A DNA stretch of 64,000 nt from Runella defluvii (GTDB taxonomy: Bacteria; Bacteroidota; Bacteroidia; Cytophagales; Spirosomataceae). The stretch lies in NCBI RefSeq assembly GCF_014195535.1, contig NZ_JACIBY010000017.1:62001-126000 (forward strand), read 5' to 3'. This document shows positions 30,849-47,643 of this stretch, one piece after another; position 1 is the stretch's first letter; each line of letters opens with the position of its first letter. The translations under genes and the position numbers were made by a program. The notes under the pieces were generated by a model. It was not told the DNA's origin. It searched no databases and worked only from the letters and a program-made list of their open reading frames with translations.

Positions 30849-30853
30849 ACTTC

Positions 30854-32830: not shown

Positions 32831-32849
32831 ACTCACCAACGCGCCAAAG

Positions 32850-33209
32850 ATGAAATCCTATTTTCGCATCGACGAAGTTACGTACTCCCATTTATTGGGC
32901 AGGCTCAACGACCTGCACGTGACCGATAAGCGCGGTACGCTCCCTGATTTTACTTTTTTTCATAAAGACGAATGGCTCGCCGACACGGCCGTCATCGAGG
33001 AACTCGCGCGGCACAAAGGCGAATGGCAGGTTAATTTGGTCTTTGCCCATACCACCAACCCTATGCGGTTTATCCGCCGACAAATCACTTCGTATTCGTG
33101 CCCGCGTAAGGCATCCTTGTTTGCGTCTTTGATGCGCCGACTGGCGGCAAAAGACCAGCGCGGTACGCAGGCAATCAGTATAAATGATATATTTGTAGCA
33201 CAGAACTGA
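32850..33209 (+). CDS. Small protein of unknown function
   Basis: 119 residues, soluble, basic. Not recognised. It begins KSYFRIDEVTYSHLLGRL and has a CPRKASLFASLMRRLAAKDQRG stretch rich in Lys and Arg near the C-terminus. It has its own strong promoter, and the promoter of the following TetR gene lies inside its 3' end, so the two genes may share control. Codon use looks like that of the neighbours. Confidence 0.6.
   Translation: MKSYFRIDEVTYSHLLGRLNDLHVTDKRGTLPDFTFFHKDEWLADTAVIEELARHKGEWQVNLVFAHTTNPMRFIRRQITSYSCPRKASLFASLMRRLAAKDQRGTQAISINDIFVAQN
33188..33195 (+). promoter_or_regulatory. -7 box TATATTTG for TetR gene
   Basis: TATATTTG inside the 3' end of the preceding gene, 34 bp before the TetR start codon. 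No clear -33 box. Confidence 0.5.
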
Positions 33210-33229: not shown

Positions 33230-33850
33230 ATGCACAATACCAAAGAAAAAATCGTACTAGCTTCCATAAAGCTCTTCAATGAGCATGGGGTGGCAAGTGT
33301 CAGGCTTCAACAAATAGCCGATGAAACGGGTATTAGCGTCGGTAATTTGGCCTACCATTTTCGCAACAAAGAGGCCATTGTCTCTTCTGTTTACGAAAAA
33401 CTATTTGATGAATTTCGGCAACTTCTCAGTACGTACCTTCTCACACCTTCTTTTGCCGATTTCGACGGGCAGATGGCAGGCTATTTTGAATTTTTCAAAA
33501 CCTACCGTTTTTACATTACCGATTTGTTTTCTGCCGAACATCCCCTGCCCGACATTCAAGCCGAATGGGAGATGTTTATGAACAAAATGATTTTGCAAAT
33601 CAAAAACCGTATCGACTTCCACGTCAGTCGAGGCGAGCTCCTTCCCGAATCGTCGCAAGGAACGTACTACCTCATTTCGGAGTCGATTTGGATGACGCTG
33701 GTTTTTTGGATTCCTCAACAAACCCTACGCCGTAAACCCGTCACGGAAGGGCGCTATCGGACAGCCGTGTGGAACCATTTAAAACCTTACTTTACTCAAA
33801 AAGGCTTAGATACCTTTGAGCTCATCTCCCCCGTCCTTTCCCAAAATTAA
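33230..33850 (+). CDS. TetR/AcrR-family transcriptional regulator
   Basis: 206 residues. The N-terminal helix-turn-helix is canonical (ASIKLFNEHGVASVRLQQIADETGISVGNLAYHFRNKEAIV). The C-terminal ligand domain is rich in aromatic residues (YFEFFKTYRFYITDLF) and is of no known specificity. It is the last gene before the hydrogenase island on the same strand, so the two palindromes in front of hupS are possible targets, but a local gene is equally possible. Confidence 0.88.
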   Translation: MHNTKEKIVLASIKLFNEHGVASVRLQQIADETGISVGNLAYHFRNKEAIVSSVYEKLFDEFRQLLSTYLLTPSFADFDGQMAGYFEFFKTYRFYITDLFSAEHPLPDIQAEWEMFMNKMILQIKNRIDFHVSRGELLPESSQGTYYLISESIWMTLVFWIPQQTLRRKPVTEGRYRTAVWNHLKPYFTQKGLDTFELISPVLSQN

Positions 33851-33943: not shown

Positions 33944-33985
33944 TTAGAAAAAAATTTCTAAATTTAATTAGAAAATATTTTCTAA
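33944..33985. promoter_or_regulatory. Two tandem 18-bp palindromes upstream of hydrogenase promoter
   Basis: TTAGAAAAAAATTTCTAA (33944-33961) and TTAGAAAATATTTTCTAA (33968-33985) are perfect palindromes starting 24 bp apart, with a further TTCTAA half-site to the left. They lie 16 bp upstream of the -7 box at 34001 and cover the -33 position, which has no TTTG. They are likely the binding sites of a dimeric regulator of the hydrogenase island. Confidence 0.7.
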
Positions 33986-34000: not shown

Positions 34001-34008
34001 TATATTTG
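34001..34008 (+). promoter_or_regulatory. -7 box TATATTTG of hydrogenase island
   Basis: TATATTTG matches TAnnTTTG and gives a leader of about 45 bases to the hupS ATG at 34062. The missing -33 box and the palindromes in its place suggest activation. Confidence 0.55.
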
Positions 34009-34061: not shown

Positions 34062-35045
34062 ATGGCAAATGTACTATGGCTGCAAGGAGGCGCGTGCAGT
34101 GGCAATACCATGTCATTCTTAAATGCCGAAGAGCCTACGGTGGTTGACCTCGTCACCGATTTCGGCGTCAATATTCTCTGGCACCCTTCCATTGGGCTTG
34201 AGATTGGTCACCAAGTGACCGAGCTACTCGACGACATCATCAAGGGAAAAGTGCAATGCGACATTTTGGTATATGAAGGAAGTATCATCAAAGGCCCTAA
34301 AAATACAGGCACGATGAACTACTTCTGCGACCGCCCCATGAAGGACTGGGTAAAGGAGTTATCGGAGGTAGCGGGTTTTGTGGTTGCCATTGGCGACTGC
34401 GCCACCTGGGGCGGAATTCCCGCCGTGGAACCCAACCCCAGCGAATCGACGGGCGTACAGTTTTTGCGCAAAGAAAAAGGTGGCTTTTTGGGGGCTAATT
34501 ACAAATCAAAAGGTGGTTTGCCCGTCATCAACATCCCTGGCTGTCCTGCTCACCCCGACTGGATTACGCAAATTTTGGTGGCCATTGCTACGGGTCGTAT
34601 CGGGGATGTTTTATTAGACGACTACCACCGTCCCAAAACGTTCTTTACCGATTTTGTCCAAACGGGCTGTACCAACGTTGTCAATTTTGCCAATAAAGTG
34701 GATGGAGGTTTTGGAAAACGAGGCAACGGTTGCTTGTTCTACGAAGTGGGCTGCCGTGGGCCCATGACCCGGGCGAGTTGTAACAAAATATTGTGGAACC
34801 GTCAATCGAGTAAAACCCGCGCCAATCACCCCTGCTTAGGTTGTACTGAACCAGGCTTCCCGCACCACGATTTGGCCAAAGGAAGTGTCTTCAAAACCCT
34901 CAAGTATTTGGGCTTTTTGCCCCAAGACGTACCTGCGGGCAACTCCAAACTTGGTTACTACATGCGCGCTGGTTTTGAAAAAACAATGCACGCCGTGGAA
35001 GTCGGGCTTGGTATCGAAAAAGCCCACAGCCAAGGTTCTAAATAG
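34062..35045 (+). CDS. hupS: [NiFe]-hydrogenase small subunit (group 2a-like)
   Basis: 327 residues. It carries the iron-sulfur cluster relay of uptake hydrogenases: proximal-cluster cysteines C12 (GGACSGNT), C113 (GDCATWGG) and C161 (PGCPAHPDW), and distal/medial ligands in GCLFYEVGCRGPMT and HPCLGCTEPGFP (C258, C261). There is no Tat signal and no C-terminal membrane helix, unlike group 1 enzymes; the N-terminus (MANVLWLQGGACSGNTMSFL) and overall pattern match the soluble cyanobacterial HupS/mycobacterial HucS type. It passes electrons from H2 oxidation to an unknown acceptor. First gene of the island, 44 bp before the large subunit gene. Confidence 0.95.
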   Translation: MANVLWLQGGACSGNTMSFLNAEEPTVVDLVTDFGVNILWHPSIGLEIGHQVTELLDDIIKGKVQCDILVYEGSIIKGPKNTGTMNYFCDRPMKDWVKELSEVAGFVVAIGDCATWGGIPAVEPNPSESTGVQFLRKEKGGFLGANYKSKGGLPVINIPGCPAHPDWITQILVAIATGRIGDVLLDDYHRPKTFFTDFVQTGCTNVVNFANKVDGGFGKRGNGCLFYEVGCRGPMTRASCNKILWNRQSSKTRANHPCLGCTEPGFPHHDLAKGSVFKTLKYLGFLPQDVPAGNSKLGYYMRAGFEKTMHAVEVGLGIEKAHSQGSK

Positions 35046-35089
35046 TTTCCCCCAATCGCATTTTATCACTTCAATTTGAACACACTCCA

Positions 35090-36682
35090 ATGGCAATCAC
35101 CAAAGAACTAAATATATCCCCCGTAGGTCGGGTAGAAGGCGACCTCGACGTAAAAGTATATATGGAAGATGGCGTAGTGACCCGCGCCCACACGCAAGCG
35201 GCGATGTTCCGTGGTTTTGAGCAAATTATGGCGGGCAAAGACCCCCAATCGGGCTTGATTGTTACCCCTCGTATTTGTGGAATTTGCGGTGGTTCGCACT
35301 TGTACTGTGCTTCATCGGCTTTAGACACCGCTTGGGGCACCACCTTGCCGCCGAATGCCCTCTTGCTTCGTGCCTTGGGACAAGCCACCGAAACCATCCA
35401 AAGTATTCCGCGTTGGTTTTACGCCATTTTTGCCACCGACTTGGCCAATAAAAAATTTGCGAACAAACCCCTTTACGCCGAAGTTGTAAAACGCTGGGCA
35501 GCGTATGTGGGTACTTCCTTCCAAAAGGGAGTCACCACGAGCGCGCTACCTGTGCAAGTGTATGCACTTTTTGGCGGTCAATGGCCGCACTCTAGCTACA
35601 TGGTACCTGGCGGGGTGATGAGCGCCCCTACCCTCAAAGACATCACGCGGGCCCACGCTATCATGAACCAATTCCGCAAAGATTGGCTCGAAAGCATCTT
35701 TTTGGGCTGTTCGATTGAGCGTTACATGCAAATCAAAACGTGGGACGATTTGATGGAGTGGGTCGAAGAAAACGAATCGCAACGCAACTCCGACTTGGGC
35801 TTGTACATTCGGGCAGGGATTGAGTTTGGGCTCCATAAATTTGGACAAGGGGTAGGTAAATTTGTGGCGTTTGGTACCTATATTCACAAAGATTTGTGGA
35901 ACCAGCCCAAAATTGAAACCCGTAATAACGCCGTGATTAGTCCTGGTGGTTTTTGGGACGGCAAAAAGTACTATGAATTAGACCATTTGCAAGTGCAAGA
36001 GCACGTCAAGCACGCATGGTACGCCGATGTACCCGCCGCCCACCCTTGGGACGAACCATTGCCAACGCCGCTGCCGTCGCAAAACTTGGCCGAAACCAAC
36101 TTTAACGATAAATACAGCTGGTCGAAAGCACCGCGTTACATGAATTTTGCGGCCGAAGCTGGGCCTTTGTCGCGCGTGATTATGAATGCCAATCCTGCCA
36201 ACAAAGCACACCAATTCCAAGATCCGCTCTTCATGGATATTATGGAGAAAATGGGGCCAAGTGTGTTTACCCGCACGTTGGCACGCTTGCACGAAGCGCC
36301 TCGTTTGTACTTAATGATTGACGAATGGCTCCGTCAAGTGGACCTCAACGGCGACTTTTACATCAAACCCACTGAACGCGACGGCAAAGGTTGGGGAGCT
36401 ACGGAAGCAGCGCGTGGGGCATTGGCACACTGGATTGAAATTGAAAACGGCGTCATCAAAAACTATCAAGTGATGGCTCCAACCACTTGGAACGTAGGCC
36501 CTAACGACGAAACGGGCAACCCTGGGCCCATTGAGGCCGCCTTGGAAGGCACCGAAATCGAAGACCCGCATGACCCCGTGGAAGTAGGTTTGGTGGCTCG
36601 TTCGTTTGACTCTTGCTTGGTATGTACCGTTCACGCCCACGATGGCAAAAGTGGTCAGGAACTAGCGAAGTTTAAGTTGTAA
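35090..36682 (+). CDS. hupL: [NiFe]-hydrogenase large subunit (group 2a-like)
   Basis: 530 residues. The active-site cysteines are in RICGICGGSH (C63, C66) and in the C-terminal DSCLVCTVH (C509, C512). A 15-residue tail after H515 should be removed by the maturation protease once nickel is in place. It binds the Ni-Fe(CN)2CO centre and splits H2. The DSC (not DPC) form and ending AHDGK are typical of group 2a as I know it. It functions in the cytoplasm with HupS. Confidence 0.95.
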   Translation: MAITKELNISPVGRVEGDLDVKVYMEDGVVTRAHTQAAMFRGFEQIMAGKDPQSGLIVTPRICGICGGSHLYCASSALDTAWGTTLPPNALLLRALGQATETIQSIPRWFYAIFATDLANKKFANKPLYAEVVKRWAAYVGTSFQKGVTTSALPVQVYALFGGQWPHSSYMVPGGVMSAPTLKDITRAHAIMNQFRKDWLESIFLGCSIERYMQIKTWDDLMEWVEENESQRNSDLGLYIRAGIEFGLHKFGQGVGKFVAFGTYIHKDLWNQPKIETRNNAVISPGGFWDGKKYYELDHLQVQEHVKHAWYADVPAAHPWDEPLPTPLPSQNLAETNFNDKYSWSKAPRYMNFAAEAGPLSRVIMNANPANKAHQFQDPLFMDIMEKMGPSVFTRTLARLHEAPRLYLMIDEWLRQVDLNGDFYIKPTERDGKGWGATEAARGALAHWIEIENGVIKNYQVMAPTTWNVGPNDETGNPGPIEAALEGTEIEDPHDPVEVGLVARSFDSCLVCTVHAHDGKSGQELAKFKL

Positions 36683-36693
36683 ATTATTTTTTA

Positions 36694-36800
36694 ACCACAA
36701 AGGACTCAAAGAATCGCACAAAGTTCACAAAGAGAAAAATAACATTGTGTTCTTGGAGCTGCATCGTTGATTCCTTTGTGATGAACTTCTTTTGCATATC
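36694..36800. repeat. CACAAAG-type intergenic repeat element
   Basis: The gap between hupL and the protease gene holds AACCACAAAGGACTCAAAG, GCACAAAG and TTCACAAAG, and at its right end the inverted CCTTTGTG and GAACTTC. The pattern is that of a dispersed non-coding repeat that has landed inside the operon. No promoter is evident. Confidence 0.5.
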
Positions 36801-36802
36801 AC

Positions 36803-37294
36803 ATGAAAAAAACAGCGATAATGGGGTTTGGGAACCCGTGCCGAAGCGACGACGGAGTCGGCTGCTTTGTAATTGAACAACTCAAAAACCAATTCGCTGA
36901 AAATGAACAGGTAAGTTTATTTGACATGGGCACTTCAGCTTTTGAGGTGCTCTTTCACTTACAAGGTCATGAACGAATCATCGTGGTGGATGCCGTGGTC
37001 AATTCGGGAGAAACCCCAGGAACATTGTATCGACTGCCTGCCTCCGAAATCAACGCACACATTCAGGATGACCCGATGGTGTTTTTGCACAGCTTAAAAT
37101 GGGATCAAGCACTTTCGTACGCCAAAAAAATCTTACGCGAAGCCTACCCCGACGACATTCAGGTGTATTTGATTGCCGTGGACAACCTTCGGCTTGACAT
37201 TGGTTTGAGTCAGCCCGTTCGTGAAGCAGGCGACCGCGTTGTTGCGTTGATTTTGAACGAATTGGAATTAGCTACGTATGACACTACAGCTTAA
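36803..37294 (+). CDS. hupW: Hydrogenase maturation protease
   Basis: 163 residues of the HycI/HyaD/HoxW peptidase fold. Conserved GFGNPCRSDDGVG near the N-terminus, Asp in DMGTS, VVDAV and the metal-binding His in FLHSLKW. It reads nickel in the large-subunit precursor and clips the C-terminal tail after His 515. Its 3' end overlaps the next gene by 17 bp. The symbol follows cyanobacterial usage (HupW for the group 2a protease); hupD would be an equal choice. Confidence 0.9.
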   Translation: MKKTAIMGFGNPCRSDDGVGCFVIEQLKNQFAENEQVSLFDMGTSAFEVLFHLQGHERIIVVDAVVNSGETPGTLYRLPASEINAHIQDDPMVFLHSLKWDQALSYAKKILREAYPDDIQVYLIAVDNLRLDIGLSQPVREAGDRVVALILNELELATYDTTA

Positions 37295-37586
37295 AAATGG
37301 GCATTTGATTCTCCCTGTGGCGTTGGTGCAGTCGGTGTTGGAAAACGAAGCGCAGGTCAATTGGGTGTATTATCCCGAGCGGCAAACCTTATTGTTGGCA
37401 GGAAAATCCAAACAGTTTTTTGAAAAACTCCATAAAACGAATTGGCAAACGCTCAAAGACAAAAACTTACTTGGAGACAAAGCTTTTTACCTCCGTGGCT
37501 TGTTGCTTGATTTTGAGCTCGACGAGCACGACCGTGAACTAGCTTACGACGTTACCCAAGTGGGCATTATCAACGTACGACTGTGA
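37278..37586 (+). CDS. Small hydrogenase-island protein A, unknown
   Basis: 102 residues, soluble. Not recognised. Beta-rich first half (LKNGHLILPVALVQSVLENE, VNWVYYPERQTLLLAG), helical middle (KQFFEKLHKTNWQTLKD), acidic C-terminus (LDFELDEHDRELAYDV). Its start lies inside the protease gene and its stop overlaps the next GTG start, so it is tightly coupled to hydrogenase maturation genes. A role in assembling or regulating the enzyme is inferred from position only. Confidence 0.72.
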   Translation: MTLQLKNGHLILPVALVQSVLENEAQVNWVYYPERQTLLLAGKSKQFFEKLHKTNWQTLKDKNLLGDKAFYLRGLLLDFELDEHDRELAYDVTQVGIINVRL

Positions 37587-37909
37587 ACCCATTTCCCGAT
37601 TCTCGCGCAGGTTTTACCCTCAACATCCGAGGTTTGTACAGAGATTTAGAGGTACTTATCAACGACCGTTGGCTTCATTCGACCGAAGTACGTTACCGAA
37701 TCGAAACCCGAAAAGGACGTTGGCATCTGACCATGGTCTATGTGTATGTTCAGAACCCATTTCAGTTTTTATGCCGAAGGCTCGACCATTACGATACCGA
37801 AGAAAAAGCTAAATTATACGCTCAATTGTTTCGGCGCGGCATGCAGCGCGACGCCCGAGGAACCCTTAAATCTAACGCTTTACATGTTTTCGATATTTGC
37901 CTCAATTGA
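37583..37909 (+). CDS. Small hydrogenase-island protein B, unknown
   Basis: 108 residues, GTG start in a GTGA overlap with the preceding gene. Not recognised. It is basic, with the segments YRIETRKGRWHLTMVYVYV and DTEEKAKLYAQLFRRGMQRD. Its C-terminal coding overlaps the TPR gene start by 26 bp. The tight packing argues that it is a true gene and acts with its neighbours. Confidence 0.7.
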   Translation: MNPFPDSRAGFTLNIRGLYRDLEVLINDRWLHSTEVRYRIETRKGRWHLTMVYVYVQNPFQFLCRRLDHYDTEEKAKLYAQLFRRGMQRDARGTLKSNALHVFDICLN

Positions 37910-39398
37910 CCAACTCCCTGCTTTACAGGCCATTATTGACAGCGAATTTCGCCTCAACGAAGTCGTCAGTGTCAAAGAAATGCCTTCGATTGGGGAAGAA
38001 ATCACGAACCGATTTTTGGTAATACGTGACCATGAAATTTTTATTCCGATTGATTGGGCCAACGAAGCTCCGCCCTTTCTTCTCCCTTATCCCCTGGAGT
38101 TTAGCGCGCAAAATTTGTTGGCAGTGGTTTATACCAAACTCGGAAATTATGAGAAAGCGTACGAATTGGCCGAATTCAACCCGTTTCTTCTGCGGGACAT
38201 CGACACCCTCAAATGCCTCCAACACGGGGTGCAGGTGAGAATCACGGAGGAGCCGTTCACAAAGCTGCCGTCCTTTGAAATGTATCGGTATTGGCACAAC
38301 ACCGCCGTCATGGCTCACTATGGCGAATTGACGCACTTTGTGCATTACGTTACCATAAAGAAATACTACCAAAAAGCCCTCGAAGCGGCCCCCGATGATG
38401 AATGGCGGGCGTTTACGGGCAAACATTATGCCTCGCTCTTGTTAGACGCGGACGAACTGAGTGAAGCCGAGTGGCTAGTAAATCAATGCCGAGATACGGC
38501 CATTTCCGAAGATGCACAGTTTGAATTATTGGCGGTTCTTTGTGCGATTTGGATAAAGAAAATACAGGTGCCTTACGATACGGAGCTGCTCCAACAAATC
38601 AAAAATACGTTGGCCACTCTTGTCTCCTATTATGAACAACGACAAAACGGGGCACAAGCAGCTTTGTTACTCACAGATGCTTCTCAAATTGCTAATTTGA
38701 CCGATAGTTTTGCCGAATCGTTGGGTTACATCAATCGAGCCATTGCGTTATTGCGCCAAGAAGATATTCCTGAACTGGTAGCCAATGCGCACTACCGAAA
38801 AGGGACACTGTTATACACATGGGCTCAAAATGGCAATCCACAATTTTTGAAACCTGCCATGGAAGCCTACCAAGAAGCACTCAAACTATTTACCCGCGAC
38901 AATGCGCCTGAGGTGTTTGCCGAAATTCATCACCATTTGGGCGTGATTTATTCAGAAATTCCTGACGAAGTCAAGAAAAAAGGGATTTGGGCGGCTGTTT
39001 CGGTAAGTTCTTTCAAAGAAGCACTCCGCTATTTTACCCGCGAAACCAATCCGTACGAATACGCGCGCATCTGCAACAGTTACGCCAATGCCCTCACCAA
39101 ATACCCCGAAGCTGCCCAAAGCGACAACCACGCTAAAGCGCTGTCGTTTTATCGGGAGGCGTTGGACGTACGGACGGCGGCAGACTACCCGCACGAACGG
39201 GCTTTGACCTTGCTCAATTTTTTAGAAATAGGCTGGTTTGTTCACCACGAAAACGAAGCAAGCGAAAAAGCGCTGTTGGGAGAAATGGAAAGCTACATTG
39301 CCGAACTACCCAAGTTGACTAGCGATGCGTCGTTGTTGATAGAAGTAGCGCAGCACCAAGAAAAATTGGAGAAATTAAGAACATTGGTTGGACTATAA
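37884..39398 (+). CDS. TPR-repeat protein of the hydrogenase island
   Basis: 504 residues from ATG 37884 (MFSIFASIDQLPALQA); the frame is open further upstream, but that part would run deep into the preceding gene. The second half has several TPR-like helical pairs (AMEAYQEALKLFTRDNAPEV, SSFKEALRYFTRETNPYEYA, ALSFYREALDVRTAADYPHE), each set being about 34-40 residues. No signal peptide, so cytoplasmic. TPR arrays bind other proteins; it may be a chaperone or scaffold for the hydrogenase. I recall TPR genes beside actinobacterial group 2a hydrogenases but cannot check. Confidence 0.82.
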   Translation: MFSIFASIDQLPALQAIIDSEFRLNEVVSVKEMPSIGEEITNRFLVIRDHEIFIPIDWANEAPPFLLPYPLEFSAQNLLAVVYTKLGNYEKAYELAEFNPFLLRDIDTLKCLQHGVQVRITEEPFTKLPSFEMYRYWHNTAVMAHYGELTHFVHYVTIKKYYQKALEAAPDDEWRAFTGKHYASLLLDADELSEAEWLVNQCRDTAISEDAQFELLAVLCAIWIKKIQVPYDTELLQQIKNTLATLVSYYEQRQNGAQAALLLTDASQIANLTDSFAESLGYINRAIALLRQEDIPELVANAHYRKGTLLYTWAQNGNPQFLKPAMEAYQEALKLFTRDNAPEVFAEIHHHLGVIYSEIPDEVKKKGIWAAVSVSSFKEALRYFTRETNPYEYARICNSYANALTKYPEAAQSDNHAKALSFYREALDVRTAADYPHERALTLLNFLEIGWFVHHENEASEKALLGEMESYIAELPKLTSDASLLIEVAQHQEKLEKLRTLVGL

Positions 39399-39479
39399 AA
39401 TCTTAATACCCCCACGCTTTTACCTAAATCAACGCTAGGAATGGCTTTAACCCTGACTTTTGAAGTCGAAAAAATAAGT

Positions 39480-39506
39480 CCTTCCAAGTTTTGAAAACTT
39501 GGAAGG
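39480..39506. repeat. 27-bp palindrome CCTTCCAAGTTTT-G-AAAACTTGGAAGG
   Basis: Perfect 13-bp arms around one base, in the 130-bp gap between the TPR gene and hypA. Related palindromes with the GTTTT/AAAAC core occur at 45467-45499 and 61751-61790. It may end or attenuate transcription in the middle of the island. Confidence 0.8.
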
Positions 39507-39528
39507 GTCATACAAAACCGCTTGATAA

Positions 39529-39870
39529 ATGCACGAAATATCATTGGTACGGAACATTTTCAGAACGTTGGAAGAAGAATTTCCCAACGACATGCAGCGC
39601 ATTCGCGGGATTTATTTAAAAGCGGGACTTTTGTCTAATGTCCAGCCTATTTTGATGCAGAATGCGTTTCAGGCTGTTTTGGAAGACCAGCCCAAGTACA
39701 ATAAAACCAGCTTACACGTCGAGGTTTTGTCCATTTTAATTCATTGCGACCTCTGTGGACAAACATCAGAAGTTGAACAATACCGCTTCGTGTGTAGTCA
39801 TTGCGGGCGGCCAAGTCGAAACGTGATACAAGGAGAAGAATTACTCATCAGTAAAGTAGAATTTGACTAA
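39529..39870 (+). CDS. hypA: Hydrogenase nickel incorporation protein HypA
   Basis: 113 residues. The N-terminal MHEISLV holds the nickel-binding His2, and the zinc ribbon has C73, C76, C89 and C92 (HCDLCG ... VCSHCG). HypA delivers Ni to the large-subunit precursor together with HypB, in the cytoplasm. Starts 23 bp after a palindrome and 6 bp before hypB. Confidence 0.95.
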   Translation: MHEISLVRNIFRTLEEEFPNDMQRIRGIYLKAGLLSNVQPILMQNAFQAVLEDQPKYNKTSLHVEVLSILIHCDLCGQTSEVEQYRFVCSHCGRPSRNVIQGEELLISKVEFD

Positions 39871-39875
39871 TTGCT

Positions 39876-40589
39876 ATGCAAAAACCTAAATCAAACCAAG
39901 CTTCCGTCGGGTCGGTACAGTGCGAAAACACGACGCTTAACCTACTAAAAGTAAACGATTTTGTGGCCAAAGCCATCCGCGACCGACTGCCGAACATCTT
40001 GGTCATCAACGTTTGTTCGTCGCCTGGCAGTGGTAAAACCACCCTCATGCAAGAAACGGGCAAGCGGCTTAAAGGCAAGTTAAACATGGCCGTTTTGGTG
40101 GGTGACCCCGAAACCGAGCGCGATGCCATCCGTATGCGCGATGTGGGTATCAACGCCCTGCAAATTGTAACGGGCGGCATGTGCCACATTGAGGCGCAGA
40201 TGATTTTCCAAGCCCTCGACCACATCGACCTCACGGGTACCGATGTGCTATTTATTGAAAACGTGGGCAATTTGGTTTGTCCAGCGGCTTTTGATTTGGG
40301 CGAAGACTACCGCGTAACGGTCTTGGCCTGCACCGAAGGCGACGACAAGCCCAAAAAATACCCTCGGATGTTTTTGACGAGCGAACTGCTCATCGTTTCC
40401 AAGTCTGACTTGTTGCCTTACGTTCCGTTTTCGGTGGAAGCGGTCACCAAAGACGCTCGCGACGTAAATCCTGACATCGAAGTACTTAGCATTTCGAGTT
40501 TGAAAGGCGACGGGATGGAAGCATGGTGCGATTGGTTGGTCGAACGGGTGCATGCAAAAAAAGAAAAAACCTCCGAAAAAGTAATGTAA
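39876..40589 (+). CDS. hypB: Hydrogenase nickel incorporation GTPase HypB
   Basis: 237 residues. P-loop SSPGSGKT at about 48-55, metal-binding C103-H104 (GGMCHIEA) and the FIENVGNLVCPAAFDLG region. It lacks the His-rich nickel-storage stretch seen in some HypB proteins, so it is the plain GTPase form. It drives nickel delivery with HypA. Confidence 0.95.
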   Translation: MQKPKSNQASVGSVQCENTTLNLLKVNDFVAKAIRDRLPNILVINVCSSPGSGKTTLMQETGKRLKGKLNMAVLVGDPETERDAIRMRDVGINALQIVTGGMCHIEAQMIFQALDHIDLTGTDVLFIENVGNLVCPAAFDLGEDYRVTVLACTEGDDKPKKYPRMFLTSELLIVSKSDLLPYVPFSVEAVTKDARDVNPDIEVLSISSLKGDGMEAWCDWLVERVHAKKEKTSEKVM

Positions 40590-40596
40590 AACAGTT

Positions 40597-42963
40597 ATGT
40601 GGGTGGAAACTGCCGAAAATACAATCCAGCAAGTTGTTTCTCAAAAGTCAGTTTCTTTTGAAGAACAAACGTATGGTATTCGGCTCACGGGCATTGTGCA
40701 AGGGGTTGGGTTTCGGCCATTTGTTTATCAACTAGCCCATGAATGGGGGCTGACAGGGACAGTAAGCAACGGTCCCGAAGGCGTAAAAGTGGTTTTAACG
40801 ACCGACCTAACTACGGCAAACCGTTTTTTAGAAACCCTTTTGGCCAATACCCCGCCCCAAGCTTTGGTAGAAAAATATGAGTTAGAGTCGCTCCCTTTTT
40901 GTTCCTTTCAAACGTTTAAAATCATTGAAAGTCAGGCTGGGAAACTTACCAATGGACTCAAACTTACCCCCGATTTTGCGATGTGTTCTTCCTGCCGAGC
41001 GGAACTACATGACCCACAAAACCGTCGTTTTCGGTATCCATTCATCACCTGCACCCAATGCGGTCCGCGCTATTCCATTCAGCGAGCAGTTCCCTACGAC
41101 CGCGCCCAAACGACGATGCAGGTCTTTGAAATGTGTCCCGCTTGTTTGGACGAATACAACGACCCTAATCATCGTCGTTTTTACTCCCAAACCAATTCTT
41201 GTCCCACCTGCGGCATTCAATTGGGCTGGTACACGTGCCGACAAGCTACTGCGTATTCTTCCTCTTTTTTACACGATACCCATTGGATTTTAGACCGCGC
41301 CCATCGGGCCTTGAAAGCGGGAAAAATTGTTGCGGTGAAAGGAATTGGGGGGTATCTTTTGCTTTGTGATGCCACCCATGAAAGCGCAGTGGCAACCCTT
41401 CGCGAACGAAAACACCGACCCACTAAACCCTTTGCCGTCCTTTATCCAACGTTAGACGTTTTACAACGAGAAGCAACCGTCGGTGACCAAGAATCCGATG
41501 CTTTGTTGAGTTCAGTTGCGCCGATTGTGTTGGTTCGTCCACATAAAACCACTTCCATTGCTCCGTCAGTCAATCCTGGCCTTGCGCACTTGGGGGTTAT
41601 GTTACCCTATGCTCCTTTGTTGGAATTACTGGCGCACGATTTTGGAAAACCATTGGTAGCAACGAGTGGAAATCGAAGTGGAAGTCCCATTATTTTCAAA
41701 GACGCTGACGCCTTGACCGAACTCAGTCAAGTCGCCGATTTTATCTTAACGCACAACCGAGAAATTGTACTTCCCCAAGACGACTCCGTCTTACGGTTTT
41801 CACCTTTTTATGCCAAACAAATTGTACTCCGTCGCAGTCGAGGGCTAACGGGAAGCGTAAACGCCACTGGTCTTACCTCAACTACGTCTATCCAACTTTC
41901 GTTTGGCGCTTCTCAAAAAAGTACATTTACGCTCCTTGCCGCAGACAACCTGCATACAAGTCAGTACCTTGGTGATTTGGAAGACTGGGAAACCCAAACG
42001 CATTTTAAACATACGCTCCAGCACCTTGTAAAGGTATTTGATGTAGAACCTAACCGTTTTTCAGCCGATGCCCACCAAGGTTATTTTTCTACCCAACTAG
42101 CGCACGAATGGGCAAAAGCGACGAAGTCAACCCTTCAAAAAATTCAACATCACGTTGCGCACTTTGCCGCTGTTTTGGCAGAGCACCGACTCCCCTCTTC
42201 TCCTGAACCCATCGCAGGAATTGTTTGGGATGGCACGGGATTAGGCTCCGACGGGCACAGCTGGGGCGGCGAGTTTTTTTTGTATTTTCCTAATCCTTCT
42301 CGTCCCTTGGGAGAAAACATCGAGCGAATAGCGTATTTTGAGTATTTCGACTCGTTGGCGGGGGATAAAATGGCAGTAGAACCTCGATTGTCGGCTTTTT
42401 CATTGCTTTTTCCTGAAAAAGAAGAACTAATCAACAACAAGTTTTCGGAGAAAGAACGTAGCTTTTACGCCAAACTTTTAGCCAAAAATACCCTAAAAAC
42501 GTCCTCCGTTGGAAGACTATTTGACGCCGTCGCTAGTCTATTAATCGGCATTGACAAAACAAGCTACGAAGGAGAAGCCGCCCTCCAATTGGAGGAATTG
42601 GCCGAACGCTATTTTTTAAAACATAGACTTTTAGTCACGCAATACTATTCATTGAAAAATCTCAATTATCGGTTTATTCCTTCCAAAGAACTGCTAGAAG
42701 CAATAGCCGAAGATGTCCTCACGGGCGTTCCAGTAGATGAAATCGCGGCGAAATTTCATGTAACGCTCGTCAAAATTATAGAAAAATTTACCCAAGAAAC
42801 AGGCGTCCAAAAAGTGGCTTTCAGCGGTGGTGTTTTCCAAAATGCGCTGTTGGTGGACCTTTGCATTGCGGTCTTGGGAGATACCCACGAGCTGTTTTTC
42901 CATCAACAATTTTCACCCAACGACGAATGTGTTTCGTTTGGACAGGCTGTGTTAACCCCTTAA
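40597..42963 (+). CDS. hypF: Carbamoyltransferase HypF
   Basis: 788 residues, full length. Domains in order: acylphosphatase (GIVQGVGFRPFVYQ), two zinc fingers (CSSCRAEL ... CTQCGPRYS; CPACLDEY ... CPTCG), YrdC-like domain (KPFAVLYPTLD, ATSGNRSGSPI) and a Kae1-like domain with HHVAHFAAVLAEH and the C-terminal AFSGGVFQNALL. It uses carbamoyl phosphate and ATP to make the thiocarbamate on HypE that becomes the CN ligand of the Fe. Confidence 0.96.
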   Translation: MWVETAENTIQQVVSQKSVSFEEQTYGIRLTGIVQGVGFRPFVYQLAHEWGLTGTVSNGPEGVKVVLTTDLTTANRFLETLLANTPPQALVEKYELESLPFCSFQTFKIIESQAGKLTNGLKLTPDFAMCSSCRAELHDPQNRRFRYPFITCTQCGPRYSIQRAVPYDRAQTTMQVFEMCPACLDEYNDPNHRRFYSQTNSCPTCGIQLGWYTCRQATAYSSSFLHDTHWILDRAHRALKAGKIVAVKGIGGYLLLCDATHESAVATLRERKHRPTKPFAVLYPTLDVLQREATVGDQESDALLSSVAPIVLVRPHKTTSIAPSVNPGLAHLGVMLPYAPLLELLAHDFGKPLVATSGNRSGSPIIFKDADALTELSQVADFILTHNREIVLPQDDSVLRFSPFYAKQIVLRRSRGLTGSVNATGLTSTTSIQLSFGASQKSTFTLLAADNLHTSQYLGDLEDWETQTHFKHTLQHLVKVFDVEPNRFSADAHQGYFSTQLAHEWAKATKSTLQKIQHHVAHFAAVLAEHRLPSSPEPIAGIVWDGTGLGSDGHSWGGEFFLYFPNPSRPLGENIERIAYFEYFDSLAGDKMAVEPRLSAFSLLFPEKEELINNKFSEKERSFYAKLLAKNTLKTSSVGRLFDAVASLLIGIDKTSYEGEAALQLEELAERYFLKHRLLVTQYYSLKNLNYRFIPSKELLEAIAEDVLTGVPVDEIAAKFHVTLVKIIEKFTQETGVQKVAFSGGVFQNALLVDLCIAVLGDTHELFFHQQFSPNDECVSFGQAVLTP

Positions 42964-42990
42964 TTATCAACCCCTCTCAACCTTACTTTT

Positions 42991-43269
42991 ATGTGTTTAG
43001 CAATTCCTGGTAAAATAAAATCCATAGAATTCCAGTACGACGGAACAGTACGCATGGCCAAAGTGCTCTTTGGTGGCATCACCAAAGAAGCCAGTTTGGA
43101 AATGGTGCCCGATGCCAAAGAAGGCGATTATGTGTTGGTACACGTGGGAGTGGCCATCAGCATCGTCGATGAAGAAGAGGCCCGAAAAACCTTCGCGTAT
43201 TTGGAGGAAATCGGAGAAATTGATGAGCTGGTAGAATCTTCCCAATTAGACCGCCCTAACCCCCTCTAG
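42991..43269 (+). CDS. hypC: HypC hydrogenase chaperone
   Basis: 92 residues starting MCLAIPGKI, the hallmark with the essential Cys2. It carries the Fe(CN)2CO unit with HypD and hands it to the large-subunit precursor. Five bases separate it from hypD. Confidence 0.96.
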
Positions 43270-43274
43270 TTCCC

Positions 43275-44369
43275 ATGAAATACTTATCAGAATTTCGCGA
43301 CCCCGAAGTAGTCGAACACTACCTCGAAGAACTGCACAAAGTAGCCACCCGCCCGTGGACAATTATGGAAATTTGCGGCGGTCAAACGCACAGTTTGGTC
43401 AAAAATGGCCTTTTAAACTTGCTGCCCAAACAAATCACCATGGTACACGGCCCAGGCTGCCCCGTGTGCGTGACTCCGCTAAACCTCATCGACAAGGCCG
43501 TTTACTTGGCCGAAGAAAAAGGAGTCATTTTATGTTCTTTTGGTGACATGATTCGCGTGCCAGGGTCGAGCCGTAGTTTGTTGGAAGCCAAAGCCAACGG
43601 TGCCGATGTTCGGATTTTATACTCACCCTTGGAAGCAGTCAAAATTGCCCAAGAACACCCTCACCGCCAGGTCGTTTTCTTTGCCGTAGGGTTTGAAACT
43701 ACCGCTCCTGCCAATGCGCTTTCGGTGCTCCATGCGCGTCGGTTAGGGCTGACCAATTATTCCATTTTAGCTTCTCATGTACTTGTTCCTCCCGCTATGG
43801 AGGCCGTTATCAACGACGGTGAGGCTCAGATTCAGGGCTTTTTGGCGGCAGGGCACGTTTGTACCATTATGGGATTGGAGGAATACGAACCCATTGTTCA
43901 AAAATACCATATTCCAATGGTAGTCACGGGGTTTGAACCTGTGGATTTGTTGCAAGGAATCTTGATGACGGTCAAACAACTCGAAAATGGCGAGGCCAAA
44001 CTCGAAAACCAATACAGTCGCGTGGTGAAAGCCAACGGCAACCCCGAAGCAAGAAAAGTCATCGAACAAGTGTTTGAGGTCTCAGACCGCGAATGGCGCG
44101 GCATCGGAAACATCCCACTCAGTGGTTGGGAAGTCAACGCATCGTTGGCGGAATTTGATGCCAATCGAAAGTTTTCTATTTCCATTGCCAAAGCCTCCGA
44201 ATGCGCCGATTGTATTGCAGGACAAGTCCTGAAAGGTATCAAAAAACCGTTTGAATGCTCGCAATTTGGCAAAGGGTGCACGCCCATCACGCCGCTGGGT
44301 GCCCCCATGGTATCGTCGGAAGGAGCCTGCGCTGCCTATTACCACTTTGCCGAAGCCGATGTCGTATAA
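43275..44369 (+). CDS. hypD: HypD, Fe(CN)2CO assembly protein
   Basis: 364 residues with a [4Fe-4S] cluster and redox thiols: the conserved CGGQTH near the N-terminus, [20 protein letters not shown] and the C-terminal cysteine pattern ([22 protein letters not shown]). It is the scaffold where cyanide and CO ligands are built onto iron. Confidence 0.96.
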
Positions 44370-44396
44370 TTTTTGACTCATCACGTTTACAAATAA

Positions 44397-45437
44397 ATGA
44401 TAACACTTGATTGCCCCATGCCCCAACTTGACTTCGACGTCATTACGCTCGGTCACGGTAGCGGCGGGATACTGACCAACCAATTACTCGAATCAGGCGT
44501 ATTTGATTTGCTCAAAAACCCGTTGCTCGACGAACACCACGACGGTGCCATGTTTGAGTGGTCGGGGAGAACGGCATTTTCTACCGATAGCTACGTCATC
44601 TCGCCCATTTTTTTTCCTGGAGGAAACATCGGCGAACTGGCCGTTAACGGAACAGTCAACGATTTGGCCATGTGCGGCGCGGTGCCCAAATACCTTTCGT
44701 TGAGCTTCATCTTAGAAGAAGGGCTTACGATGAAAGAGTTTTGGGAACTACTGGTCTCCATTCGTCGAGCTGCCGAAAAGGCAGGCGTAAGCATCGTGAC
44801 GGGCGACACCAAAGTGGTAGAACGGGGCAAAGGAGATAAAATTTTCATCAATACCTCTGGCTTGGGTAACATCCACCCGCAAGCCCACATTTCTACTAAA
44901 AATGTACGGGCAGGTGATAAAATCATCGTAAGCGGGTCGATTGCCACGCACGGCATCGCCATCATGTCGGTGCGGGAAGGATTGGAGTTTGAAACAACCC
45001 TTACCAGCGATTCCGCCCCGTTGAACCATACTGTGAAAGCATTATTGGACGAATTTGGCGCGGATATTCACTTGCTTAAAGACCCGACGCGCGGTGGCGT
45101 AGCATCTGTCCTTAACGAAGTAGCCCGCGATTCTCGCTTGGGCGTCAATCTTTTTCAGCAGCCGATACCCGTCCTCGAAGAGGTACGCGGCGCTTGTGAA
45201 TTGCTTGGCCTTGACCCACTTTACGTGGCTAATGAAGGGGTTTTTATGGCTTTTGTTCCTGCTGAAAAAGCCGAAGAAATTGTGCAAAAACTTCGGACGT
45301 TGGAATATGGCCAAGATGCTGCCATCATTGGTGAAGTAACCACCGAACACCCCAAACAAGTAGTGCTTCACAGCCGAATTGGGGGAAAACGGGTGGTAAA
45401 TATGTTGGTGGGAGAACAACTTCCCCGCATTTGTTAA
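44397..45437 (+). CDS. hypE: HypE, thiocarbamate dehydratase
   Basis: 346 residues if begun at 44397; ATG 44418 (MPQLDFDVITLGHGSGG) is an equal choice. AIR-synthase-like fold with GHGSGG at the ATP site and the C-terminal PRIC, whose Cys is carbamoylated by HypF and dehydrated to the thiocyanate that gives the CN ligand. All six hyp genes are thus present and in the same direction. Confidence 0.95.
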   Translation: MITLDCPMPQLDFDVITLGHGSGGILTNQLLESGVFDLLKNPLLDEHHDGAMFEWSGRTAFSTDSYVISPIFFPGGNIGELAVNGTVNDLAMCGAVPKYLSLSFILEEGLTMKEFWELLVSIRRAAEKAGVSIVTGDTKVVERGKGDKIFINTSGLGNIHPQAHISTKNVRAGDKIIVSGSIATHGIAIMSVREGLEFETTLTSDSAPLNHTVKALLDEFGADIHLLKDPTRGGVASVLNEVARDSRLGVNLFQQPIPVLEEVRGACELLGLDPLYVANEGVFMAFVPAEKAEEIVQKLRTLEYGQDAAIIGEVTTEHPKQVVLHSRIGGKRVVNMLVGEQLPRIC

Positions 45438-45466
45438 CCTTTAAACCTTTCTCCAACCCTCATTCC

Positions 45467-45499
45467 AAACCTTATAGGTTTTTAAAACCTATAAGGTTT
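45467..45499. repeat. 33-bp palindrome between hypE and NHL gene
   Basis: AAACCTTATAGGTTTT and AAAACCTATAAGGTTT are perfect 16-bp arms around one base. It forms a hairpin in the hypE to NHL gap and may act as a weak terminator or mRNA end. Confidence 0.8.
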
Positions 45500-45520
45500 C
45501 TAACGATAAGGTTTCTAACG
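45491..45520. repeat. Tandem 15-bp duplication ATAAGGTTTCTAACG x2
   Basis: Two exact copies of ATAAGGTTTCTAACG lie end to end, starting in the right arm of the palindrome and ending 3 bp before the NHL start codon. Confidence 0.8.
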
Positions 45521-45523
45521 AAA

Positions 45524-46696
45524 ATGAACTTAAACATAGACATCACCGACGCCCCACTTTCCCCACTTTCCACTTCCAGTGCTCGCACTACTTATGCGGC
45601 ATCGTTGGCAGGGAAAGCGCCGATGGTCGAAAAAGTAACCATTTTTCGGGGAGATGAAGGGAATCCTTTATTAGCGCCACGCGGTGTGTGGGCCGTTGGA
45701 AACCGTCTGTTGGTGGCAGATACGGGTCAAAATCGGCTATTTTGTTGGAACCAATTGCCAGAGACAGAATTTGCAGTCCCCGACCTTGTGTTAGGCCAAC
45801 TCGAAACGTCGCATACGGGACGAAACGCGGGTAGTAAAGTCCATGCAGGCTCGTTGCAGTACCCTTCGGGGATTTGGTCAGACGGGCAACGATTGGTCGT
45901 TGCCGACGCGTGGAATCACCGAGTACTCATTTGGAATAGCTTCCCTACTCAAAATGGGCAGGACGCCGATGTAGTTATCGGGCAACCCGACTTTGAAAGC
46001 AACTTACCGAACCTTCGAGGCGTTGGAGCTACGCCTTCGGCTCAGTCGCTGTATTGGCCATACGGTGTTTTTTCGGACGGCCAACGGCTATGGATTTGCG
46101 ATACGGGCAATCGTCGGGTTTTGTTTTATGAGGCATTTCCCACCCAAAATTTCACTGCCGCCGACGCCGTCATTGGAAAACCAGATTTTACAGAACGCGA
46201 CTACGAAAACCACGAACCAATTTGGCCCTATTCCGTCCGAGTAAATGCCGAAGGAGTACTGTCGATTGCCGATACGCAATATTACCGAAACCTCATTTGG
46301 CACCGTTGGCAAGACGCCTTTACCCAGCCCGCTGACGTCATCATCGGCCAGCCCGATTTTGACGCAAATGGAATGAATCAATTCAGTTTGTTTCCCCAAC
46401 AAAACTCCATGAGCTGGACCTACGACGCCTTTTTTCACCAAAATGGGTTATTTGTTGCCGATACGGGAAATAGCCGTTTGCTTTGGTTTGACCGCATTCC
46501 TACCGAAAACAACGCCTTGGCCGACAACCTCATTGGCCACGATAATTTTAGAACTGGCAGCGAAAATAGCAATACCCGCTTTGGCACCGACAAGCAATTG
46601 TACTGGCCATTTTCGCTTTGTGCCGTAGAGCGTTGTTTGGTGGTAGCCGATACGGGCAATCACCGCGTGCTTTTGTATCAAATCACCAATCCTTAA
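45524..46696 (+). CDS. Six-bladed NHL-repeat beta-propeller of the hydrogenase island
   Basis: 390 residues from ATG 45524 (MNLNIDITDAPLSPL); the frame opens earlier at a TTG inside hypE. Six blades carry the pattern (W/Y)P(Y/S)G...L(V/W)VADTxxxRVLxW, e.g. LVVADAWNHRVLIWN, LWICDTGNRRVLFYE, LVVADTGNHRVLLYQ, between GQPDF-type linkers. No signal peptide. NHL propellers bind proteins or small ligands; none has an enzyme motif here. Placed between hypE and the permease, it probably serves the hydrogenase, perhaps as a scaffold or partner in electron transfer. Such genes are, as I recall, also found by actinobacterial group 2a hydrogenases. Confidence 0.85.
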   Translation: MNLNIDITDAPLSPLSTSSARTTYAASLAGKAPMVEKVTIFRGDEGNPLLAPRGVWAVGNRLLVADTGQNRLFCWNQLPETEFAVPDLVLGQLETSHTGRNAGSKVHAGSLQYPSGIWSDGQRLVVADAWNHRVLIWNSFPTQNGQDADVVIGQPDFESNLPNLRGVGATPSAQSLYWPYGVFSDGQRLWICDTGNRRVLFYEAFPTQNFTAADAVIGKPDFTERDYENHEPIWPYSVRVNAEGVLSIADTQYYRNLIWHRWQDAFTQPADVIIGQPDFDANGMNQFSLFPQQNSMSWTYDAFFHQNGLFVADTGNSRLLWFDRIPTENNALADNLIGHDNFRTGSENSNTRFGTDKQLYWPFSLCAVERCLVVADTGNHRVLLYQITNP

Positions 46697-46708
46697 CCAG
46701 TCACTTAC

Positions 46709-47317
46709 ATGGAACTCGCCCCTTTGTTTTTCGCCGTTATCGTCGGGTTTTCTCATTGTTTTGAAGCCGACCACCTGGTGGCGGTCAGTAGCATTGTCAC
46801 CCGCAGAGACTCCACCTCAGCCGCGCTCAAAGACGGGGCGTTTTGGGGTCTTGGTCATACGTCCACGATACTACTGGTGGCATTGGTGTATATGCTTGGC
46901 AAATTTGTACTTTCCGAAGCCATTTTCCAATACTTTGAAGCAGGGGTAGGTCTGATGCTCATCGTGTTAGGCATTCACCGAATTATAAAATTAAAATCCG
47001 AACTCCATCACCCTCACCTCCACGAACCTGCTTATGGATTGGCCTACGGTGTGGGGCTTATGCACGGCTTGGCAGGAAGTGGCGGGCTGTTGATTTCAGT
47101 ACTAACTCAAATCAAAGAACCAAGTCATGCTTTTCTGTACTTGTTGTTGTTTGGCCTCGGTTCTGTCGCAGGCATGATGGTAGCGGCGGGGGCTTTTAGT
47201 CTGCCTTTTTCGAGTAAATTGTTCCAAAATCGCCACCTCTTGCGTGGGTTAACACTGGTTTCAGCCGCTTTGTGTGTGGGTTTAGGGGTAAAAATTGTTT
47301 TGGAGAATGTTTTCTAA
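46709..47317 (+). CDS. UreH/NiCoT-like membrane protein, probable nickel transporter
   Basis: 202 residues with six transmembrane segments. Helix 1 has HCFEADHLVAV, close to the H-x4-DH nickel motif of NiCoT/UreH-type permeases, and a His-rich cytoplasmic loop (HHPHLHEPAYGLAYG) follows, then GLMHGLAGSGG. The family imports or handles Ni or Co. As the last gene of the island it should supply nickel for HypAB. It could instead be of the general TauE-like exporter class, but the His motif and position favour nickel. Confidence 0.82.
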   Translation: MELAPLFFAVIVGFSHCFEADHLVAVSSIVTRRDSTSAALKDGAFWGLGHTSTILLVALVYMLGKFVLSEAIFQYFEAGVGLMLIVLGIHRIIKLKSELHHPHLHEPAYGLAYGVGLMHGLAGSGGLLISVLTQIKEPSHAFLYLLLFGLGSVAGMMVAAGAFSLPFSSKLFQNRHLLRGLTLVSAALCVGLGVKIVLENVF

Positions 47318-47412: not shown

Positions 47413-47643
47413 ATGAATTACAACGAAGCTGATTTTGTCCAATACGCCCTCCAGCAAATGGAGATTCCGATACTTCACCGTAACGGCAACTACTTTGACC
47501 TCGCAGGCGGCTTTTCGTTGGAAGTCGAAAGCCGAGATTTGTACCGCCTTTCGTTTGAGCAATGGGTCATTTCTCCCTTCGACGACATCGGGACGCTCTG
47601 TCAGTTTATTAAAACTAACCTCACACCCCGCACGAATGAATAA
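47413..47643 (+). CDS. Small unknown protein upstream of DUF151 gene
   Basis: 76 residues, acidic, soluble (FVQYALQQMEIPILHRNGNYFDLAGGF...). Not recognised. Its last 8 bp overlap the start of the next gene, which supports translation and a joint role. Confidence 0.6.
   Translation: MNYNEADFVQYALQQMEIPILHRNGNYFDLAGGFSLEVESRDLYRLSFEQWVISPFDDIGTLCQFIKTNLTPRTNE

Follow-up and report, generated by a model that had tools for sequence, protein, structure and literature searches.

A HucM- and HucE-free group 2a [NiFe]-hydrogenase island of the Bacteroidota lineage in Runella defluvii, probably under TetR control

Introduction

Does a group 2a [NiFe]-hydrogenase work without HucE? This is the central question raised by a set of Bacteroidota loci that we approached through a hydrogenase (hup) island on a 64,000-nucleotide stretch of the Runella defluvii genome (assembly GCF_014195535.1, contig NZ_JACIBY010000017.1, positions 62,001 to 126,000; hereafter the window, whose numbering is used throughout). 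In Mycobacterium smegmatis, loss of hucE equals loss of hucS and HucE is needed for the activity of the 2a enzyme Huc; 9.5% of the hydrogenase-positive species surveyed have neither HucE nor HhyE (PMC6883350). How electrons reach the membrane is understood for the mycobacterial complex built around HucM (PMC10017518). For the M. smegmatis huc operon, both the controlling signals and the regulators are described as unresolved (PMC13098282).

The enzyme type itself is known: Runella has been named among the carriers of 2a enzymes, together with a Bacteroidota-associated HucL radiation and 34 Bacteroidota genomes with HucL (PMC7784904), and the island is presumably a member of this published lineage. 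An earlier note on the window had described a complete, one-strand hydrogenase island at 34062-47317, and this description holds, as 14 consecutive open reading frames (ORFs) on the plus strand fill the interval in the ORF listing and most of their families could be named by profile searches (Table 1). We consider it likely that the island encodes a complete uptake hydrogenase of the Huc type and the Bacteroidota lineage, free of HucM and HucE and probably controlled by a TetR-family protein; what the sequences show is the gene content, phylogeny, residue conservation, the lack of HucM and HucE in our searches, and operator co-occurrence.

Relationship to mycobacterial Huc

The assignment to group 2a follows from a HupL tree with 2b and 1d outgroups, from PDB matches and from the conservation of Huc residues. 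The tree, built by a quick method from 100 rows, with a long-branched outgroup of five enzymes (two of group 2b, two of 1d, one unassigned) and with no 2c-2f or cyanobacterial sequences, nests the Bacteroidota-type clade (Shimodaira-Hasegawa-like approximate likelihood-ratio test, SH-aLRT, 99, starred) within 2a (99, starred) and leaves the 2b and 1d enzymes outside; we take these outgroup labels to be correct from the annotation of those enzymes. The window HupL thus lies inside the 2a clade, as the earlier note had supposed, and not with HoxC/HupV or HoxG, a placement with group 1 or 2b being the outcome that it had named as contrary. The top PDB matches of both subunits are M. smegmatis Huc (HucL, E 1e-191; HucS, E 2e-136), with the next enzymes far behind, which agrees with the likeness to mycobacterial HucS noticed before, and HupL is 59% identical to HucL of Mycobacterium intracellulare. 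The small subunit also proved to be without a twin-arginine translocation (Tat) signal when its N-terminus, MANVLWLQGGACSGN, was read directly. In HupL, the motifs RICGICGGSH and SFDSCLVCTVH are intact and are followed by a 15-residue extension for the protease, and the mature Huc chain stops, in the PDB alignment, at the same histidine as predicted for HupL.

The search for relatives retained the best 80 of 460 confirmed ones, so that other phyla are thinly sampled in the locus counts here and below. Bacteroidota-type counts include a Gemmatimonadaceae metagenome-assembled genome (MAG; L121) and two Pseudomonadota-labelled MAGs (L087, L120) that fall in the clade; L121 was grouped with the other loci in the alignment of cysteines, K212 and Y299, and with the Bacteroidota-type loci in the tail, Y227, smallA and smallB counts.

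Huc contains three [3Fe-4S] clusters and contacts menaquinone through Lys212, Tyr229 and Tyr301 (PMC10017518). Nine HupS cysteines are kept in the Bacteroidota-type rows (C12 in 98 of 100, with two gaps, and the other eight in 100 of 100) and would fit three [3Fe-4S] clusters, the cluster type being inferred from Huc. K212, Y227 and Y299, which correspond by alignment to Huc Lys212, Tyr229 and Tyr301, are present in 97/100, 99/101 and 92/100 Bacteroidota-type rows, respectively. This conservation bears on the proposal that the enzyme, lacking HucM and HucE, serves redox balance or O2 consumption through a soluble acceptor instead of quinone respiration. Such an acceptor would be consistent with the finding that profile searches recognised no membrane-anchoring subunit or cytochrome among the island proteins; however, they recognised no NAD- or ferredoxin-linked partner gene in the island either, and with the menaquinone-holding residues kept in at least 92% of rows we regard a soluble acceptor as improbable.

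Absence of HucM, HucE and the HucS tail

The M. intracellulare gene adjoining hucS has a DUF1641 domain and a PDB match to the membrane subunit of Huc, which at the level of sequence identifies HucM as a DUF1641 protein. Hidden Markov models (HMMs) for HucM and HucE, built from the collected sequences, found neither in 96 Bacteroidota-type loci (some duplicated under two names, some on short contigs) versus 11/17 (HucM) and 15/17 (HucE) other 2a loci; the two HucE-less loci outside the Bacteroidota type (L134, L136) have fewer than 700 bases downstream of HupL. A tblastn search of the named set gave the same picture, with each protein found in 0/71 Bacteroidota-type loci, 55 of which cover no less than 2.5 kb before and 6 kb after HupL, versus 9/14 (HucM) and 12/14 (HucE) of the others. 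At the genome level, DUF1641 had no match in the R. defluvii genome or in any of 25 HupL-positive genomes of its order, and 3 of 14 control genomes were positive. The HucE query found weaker matches in all 25, mostly to the NifU domain and in some to the Rieske domain; both matches in the R. defluvii genome are confined to the NifU domain.

The small subunit differs as well. The HucS tail ED(M/I)FV(V/P) ends 17/18 HupS rows of the other loci, the sole exception being a divergent second HupS-like protein, and 0/101 Bacteroidota-type rows, 87 of which end in SK. To the published lineage we can therefore add that its loci lack HucM, HucE and the HucS tail, yet retain the cluster cysteines and menaquinone-site residues. 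The string 'Bacteroid' is absent from the main text of PMC10017518 and PMC11018855, both of which concern HucM and the hydrogenase.

These absences might conceal an ordinary Huc whose HucM and HucE roles are filled by unrelated proteins encoded elsewhere, so that no real variant exists. This would be in keeping with the conserved catalytic and menaquinone-site residues, with the NifU- and Rieske-domain matches elsewhere in the tested genomes, and with Sphingopyxis alaskensis, which oxidises atmospheric H2 (PMC10305171) and showed no HucM in the 21.6 kb around its hydrogenase, so that HucM may not be universal. Nonetheless, the 25 genomes held no DUF1641 match, the R. defluvii HucE matches cover the NifU domain only and the HucS tail is itself changed, all of which makes this account rather unlikely, although it is the alternative to which we give most weight. 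The two small proteins of the island, smallA and smallB, were also considered as a HucM replacement and rejected, because relatives of both sit in HucM-containing 2a clusters and smallA is predicted to be MraZ-like.

A palindromic operator associated with TetR

The palindrome TTAGAAA-N4-TTTCTAA has only two matches in the 64 kb of the window, both upstream of hupS, versus 0.00 expected in shuffles. Within 350 bp upstream of hupS, it was found in 36 of the 43 named Bacteroidota-type loci that have a TetR match up to 4 kb upstream, in 3 of 24 without one and in none of 14 loci from other phyla; loci with no identified HupS start, or with a start less than 350 bp from the end, are omitted from these counts. 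The unnamed loci (L036-L059 together with the window), counted apart as some repeat named loci, for example L050 and L077, gave 15/16 with TetR versus 1/8 without. Co-occurrence of TetR and palindrome is strong by Fisher's test (p 1e-8), a value that ignores kinship. Flavobacteriaceae loci have neither.

The pattern admitted lengths of 16-20 bp, yet each of the 79 sites in the named loci plus the window measures 18 bp; 51 precede hupS, 21 hypA, hypB or hypC, five smallB2 (a smallB paralogue) or TetR, and one hypE, with one unassigned. The Bacteroidota -7 promoter consensus is TAnnTTTG, and such a box lies within 25 bp of 20 of the 79 sites, in 16 of those 20 at 15 bp (one on the opposite side); a protein on the palindrome would therefore lie immediately upstream of the -7 box, where it could obstruct the promoter. 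A scan for the sigma-70 consensus promoter found 13 matches against 18.2 expected. Of 24 genomes scanned in full, nine were HupL-negative members of the family and 15 were HupL-positive ones chosen from the 25, in all 15 of which TetR lies upstream of hupS. Each of the 15 had one to four sites and none of the nine had any, versus 2/24 genomes for a reversed control pattern. The palindrome thus lies near a regulator gene and is common to several promoters, which suggests a TetR regulon on sequence grounds. A literature search, by titles, returned no paper on a TetR regulator of a 2a hydrogenase.

Alternatively, the palindrome could be bound by another regulator, or belong to a promoter or transcript signal, with the neighbouring TetR unrelated. 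Some loci do have the operator and no TetR, others the reverse, and many carry a second TetR gene. The window, however, has a single TetR gene near hup, the co-occurrence is strong, and an 18-bp palindrome is of a length that suits a TetR dimer, so we judge an unrelated TetR unlikely. The two-component system beside the island (30884-32814) was rejected as the regulator, as it fails to accompany hup across the named loci: its PorY-like kinase was matched in 0/71 and its response regulator in 1/71, although both occur in a related genome with the same insertion (G361).

The operator also marks receptor genes. The R. defluvii genome has a third palindrome on another contig, starting 96 bp ahead of a gene for a TonB-dependent receptor, and orthologues of this receptor with the site occur in G361 (99% identical) and G352 (80%). 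The HupL-negative sister genome G335 has a 97% identical orthologue, but the stretch holding the site is missing; G010 has its third site within the hup cluster, and its best receptor match (62%) has no site upstream. The hup cluster on the Runella slithyformis plasmid contains another receptor (26% identity over 190 residues), together with a permease, an ExbB-like protein and CobN, and the site lies about 70 bp before the start of this receptor. Because two distant receptors share the operator, metal import, most likely of nickel, would be part of the regulon.

Two related arrangements were seen. The R. slithyformis pRUNSL01 hup cluster (L026, L194) combines CobN, DUF2149 and ExbB-like proteins with the TonB receptor and permease, suggestive of hydrogenase-tied metal uptake; and at L179:5884-8500 the TonB receptor that bears the operator comes after a DUF3500 protein and a membrane protein with a HupE/UreJ domain.

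Mobility and distribution

The island lies within a 23.9-kb segment that is absent from this site in five congeners. In the sister genome G335, only 18 bp separate the counterparts of window positions 24307 and 48206, whereas G361 has the segment; in G176, G168, G010 and G352 the site also lacks it and holds about 1.8 kb of other sequence, and G010 and G352 carry hup on other contigs. HupL was detected in 25 of 390 genomes drawn from the order, including four of the seven listed for the genus, and in 5 of 395 drawn across the phylum, and related islands occur on plasmids of R. slithyformis and Hymenobacter psoromatis. The window HupL groups with Emticicia and Lacihabitans (95, starred) and the R. 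slithyformis plasmid copy with Arsenicibacter (82, unstarred); this split placement within the genus fits transfer among Bacteroidota. As for a recognisable mobile element, the window contains no tRNA, no recombinase was recognised among the left-end ORFs, and the junctions share only an 8-base, chance-like repeat. An Rpn-family nuclease/transposase gene (49050-49982) lies just outside the right end. Within the segment, 24308-33000 holds genes for a resistance-nodulation-division (RND) efflux pump, for its membrane-fusion and outer-membrane partners, and for a PorY-like sensor kinase and response regulator.

Among the relatives, several departures from a single hupSL pair were observed. A tandem hupS pair precedes one hupL in Saprospiraceae and related loci (L080, L081, L093, L095, L098, L099, L107, L123, L127), two Chitinophagales-type loci (L111, L115) have two hupSL pairs per cluster, and in an Acidobacteriota locus (L128:1236-2309) the 2a cluster is preceded by a second, divergent HupS-like gene (27% identity). 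Bacteroidota-type HupL is also encoded by MAGs that bear the labels Thalassobius (L120), Rickettsiales (L087) and Gemmatimonadaceae (L121); mis-binning is likely for L120, whose HupL is identical to that of an order-level relative, and L121 forms a deep, separate branch.

Gene content and accessory genes

The host genome, 8.0 Mb in 50 contigs, has a single HupL match at E <= 0.001, and the closest named genome by HupL in the collection searched is that of Runella sp. MFBS21 (identity 100% as rounded). From hupS onward, the island encodes HupS, HupL, a HupD-type protease, two small proteins, a TPR protein, HypA, B, F, C, D and E, an NHL-repeat protein and a permease-like protein. Curated NCBIfam cut-offs are passed by HypB, F, C, D and E and the protease, and not by HypA. 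The smallB2, TetR, 76-residue and nuclease genes lie outside 34062-47317, yet recur as hup neighbours in related loci: smallB2 keeps its position on the plasmid of R. slithyformis and, with few exceptions, wherever TetR lies upstream of hupS, and the counts of the last two (Table 1) are depressed by the many fetched loci that stop short of that region. No known RNA family reached its gathering threshold within 24000-50000.

Table 1. Features of the hydrogenase island and its surroundings in the window
Feature	Position	Strand	Evidence
Segment missing at the site in close sister genome, 23.9 kb (RND efflux genes, two-component system, hup island)	24308-48205	.	
smallB2, 119 aa, smallB paralogue, paired with TetR upstream of hupS	32850-33209	+	34% identity to smallB, E 3e-18; neither Pfam nor NCBIfam match
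TetR-family regulator, proposed for the hydrogenase regulon	33230-33850	+	Pfam TetR_N 6e-11, PF13972 2.5e-9
Operator copy 1, TTAGAAAAAAATTTCTAA	33944-33961	.	palindrome match
Operator copy 2, TTAGAAAATATTTTCTAA, ends 15 bp before TAnnTTTG box	33968-33985	.	palindrome match
Promoter-like box TATATTTG, fits TAnnTTTG, 61 bases before hupS start	34001-34008	+	
HupS/HucS small subunit, 327 aa, without Tat signal	34062-35045	+	Pfam gathering score passed; PDB match to Huc
HupL/HucL large subunit, 530 aa, C-terminal extension after CTVH	35090-36682	+	Pfam gathering score passed; PDB match; tree
HupD-type maturation protease	36803-37294	+	PF01750 1.5e-19, TIGR00072 7.5e-36
smallA, 102 aa, predicted MraZ-like fold	37278-37586	+	AlphaFold, Foldseek, VIA; relatives in 2a clusters of other phyla
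smallB, 108 aa	37583-37909	+	relatives mainly in actinobacterial 2a clusters (HMM)
TPR protein (hcaA-like); start chosen by us, ORF list gives 37740	37884-39398	+	Pfam TPR_1 3.5e-7 on longer reading; aligned across loci
HypA	39529-39870	+	TIGR00100 3.8e-15, under family cut-off
HypB	39876-40589	+	TIGR00073 2e-70
HypF	40597-42963	+	TIGR00143 2.7e-206
HypC	42991-43269	+	TIGR00074 2.1e-22
HypD	43275-44369	+	TIGR00075 3.1e-150
HypE	44397-45437	+	TIGR02124 3.4e-133
NHL-repeat protein (hcaB-like); true start may be further downstream	45431-46696	+	PF01436 2.7e-16
Permease-like membrane protein, putative nickel transport	46709-47317	+	NCBIfam matches far under cut-off; weakly NicO- or ArsG-like
76-aa protein recurring beside hup	47413-47643	+	no Pfam match; 16/71 named loci
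Bifunctional nuclease (BFN) domain protein recurring beside hup	47636-48184	+	PF02577 4.3e-37; 15/71 named loci

The last gene of the island had been called a nickel permease. It is permease-like, but its link to nickel is weak, with no Pfam match at E <= 0.01 and NCBIfam matches far under cut-off; its relative in the hup cluster of R. slithyformis matches NicO (1.4e-4) and DsbD_2 (9e-5), both short of the cut-offs.

The earlier note had also considered that the extra genes set the island apart from other clusters, a view that the literature and our searches contradict. Operons for 2a enzymes often hold the repeat proteins hcaA ('TTP', presumably TPR) and hcaB (NHL) (PMC7248562), NHL proteins occur near hucL (PMC7784904), and the cyanobacterial 'extended hyp-operon' contains two small, TPR, NifU-like and NHL genes (PMC2408588, PMC3126725). 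TPR, NHL and small proteins are therefore usual for 2a operons; the TPR and NHL genes, frequent in the group though not strictly defining, are both present here. Neither smallA nor smallB matched a Pfam or NCBIfam family, and iterated HMM searches, with some matches weak (E as poor as 4e-4), found smallA relatives in 3/17 (L128, L130, L142) and smallB relatives in 10/17 2a loci outside the Bacteroidota type, so that by sequence both look like 2a accessory families, not peculiar to this island. The AlphaFold model of smallA (predicted local distance difference test, pLDDT, 96.9) has a predicted MraZ-like fold (VIA Z 8.2-8.5 for MraZ chains, with the next family at 4.4; the best Foldseek E was 3.1e-3, short of 0.001); a shared fold is no proof of function, and we make no claim of DNA binding. 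The smallB model (pLDDT 76, moderate) gave no clear fold match.

Physiological role

The genome encodes two COX1-family oxidase subunits, which makes aerobic H2 respiration plausible. Recycling of H2 from a nitrogenase, one of the roles raised in the earlier note, appears unlikely and was set aside: a search for the NifH family (NifH only, not NifD/NifK) gave three short matches, none nitrogenase-like, covering 39-47 of the 271 positions (best E 4e-5; two of them narrowly exceeded the cut-off), and such matches mean little, as the same family also matches in all 14 control genomes. The suggestion that H2 serves as a survival energy source is doubtful. Expression and activity of 2a enzymes in three species were highest during growth (PMC7784904) and the S. 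alaskensis enzyme is likewise growth-linked (PMC10305171), though M. smegmatis Huc is induced by carbon starvation (PMC13098282). Within the passages covered, the literature reports no H2 uptake by a Bacteroidota 2a enzyme, and PMC7784904 states that H2 oxidation had not been reported for various Bacteroidota lineages carrying it.

Discussion

The mechanism that we infer from these data, with respect to catalysis, affinity, quinone as acceptor, TetR binding, repression and nickel as receptor substrate, would run as follows. HypA-F, the HupD protease, the permease-like protein, smallA, smallB and the TPR and NHL proteins would build and mature HupSL, which would remain in the cytoplasm given its missing signal peptide. 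HupSL would most likely oxidise H2 at low concentration and pass electrons through three [3Fe-4S] clusters straight to menaquinone, as in Huc, the reduction of which would feed oxygen respiration. With no HucM (the quinone-channel stalk), no HucE (the NifU-Rieske protein) and no conserved HucS tail, its membrane contact would have to differ from that of mycobacterial Huc. Expression would most likely be controlled by TetR through the two palindromes close upstream of the hupS promoter, and the same operator elsewhere in the genome would bring in a TonB-dependent receptor that probably imports nickel.

A further-reaching reading, to which we give a little under an even chance, is a distinct Bacteroidota variant of Huc that reaches menaquinone without HucM or HucE by way of a changed HucS C-terminus, that in many members is TetR-switched in a regulon with hyp genes and a TonB (probably nickel) receptor, and that travels as an island. 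Several points weigh against our main account of the island. The loss of HucM, HucE and the tail maps to one clade and may be a single event, and the link between tail and HucE is a correlation only; given the M. smegmatis hucE phenotype (PMC6883350), an enzyme without HucE might be inactive or work otherwise; and the HucE-query matches elsewhere in all 25 genomes make a stand-in possible. The operator occurs in three of 24 loci without a nearby TetR and is absent from seven of 43 with one. Its genome-wide test covered 15 chosen genomes of 25, which lowers our confidence in the main account very slightly; among the ten HupL-positive genomes left out, one had a site before hupS, one elsewhere in the locus and seven none, and one was unscored. 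As these mostly lack TetR there as well as the site, the switch would belong to the TetR-carrying part of the lineage. Nickel as the receptor substrate is deduced from context, and receptors of this family are also found in HupL-negative genomes.

A large lineage that lacks HucM and HucE would offer a natural experiment on what trace-H2 oxidation requires. The operator points to a regulator and a set of targets that can be tested directly, as well as to an outer-membrane receptor that is a candidate for nickel uptake, and cultured Runella would be good test organisms, given that PMC7784904 knew of no H2 oxidation in such Bacteroidota lineages.

Among known systems, Huc of M. smegmatis (PDB 7UTD, 7UUS, 8DQV) shares with the island full-length HupL and HupS homologues, the cluster cysteines, the menaquinone-site residues and the lack of a Tat signal; the cluster of the related M. 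intracellulare likewise continues with genes for small, weakly TPR-like and NHL proteins. The island differs in having no HucM (DUF1641) and no HucE (NifU-Rieske), another HucS C-terminus, TetR with a palindromic operator upstream, and a duplicated smallB. The Bacteroidota HucL radiation presumably is its lineage, for which the main text of PMC7784904, as far as its passages go, mentions neither the missing HucM, HucE and HucS tail nor a regulator. Cyanobacterial hupSL with the extended hyp-operon, compared by published description (PMC2408588, PMC3126725), likewise has genes for small, TPR and NHL proteins next to hupSL and hyp, but with a NifU-like gene, predicted membrane spans in its two small proteins and a tie to N2 fixation. 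The plasmid 2a hydrogenase of S. alaskensis resembles the island in that no HucM was found in the 21.6 kb around it (the chromosome lay outside the search), and differs in possessing both HucE and the HucS tail. As S. alaskensis takes up H2 below the atmospheric level (PMC10305171) and no HucM was found around its hydrogenase, HucM may be dispensable.

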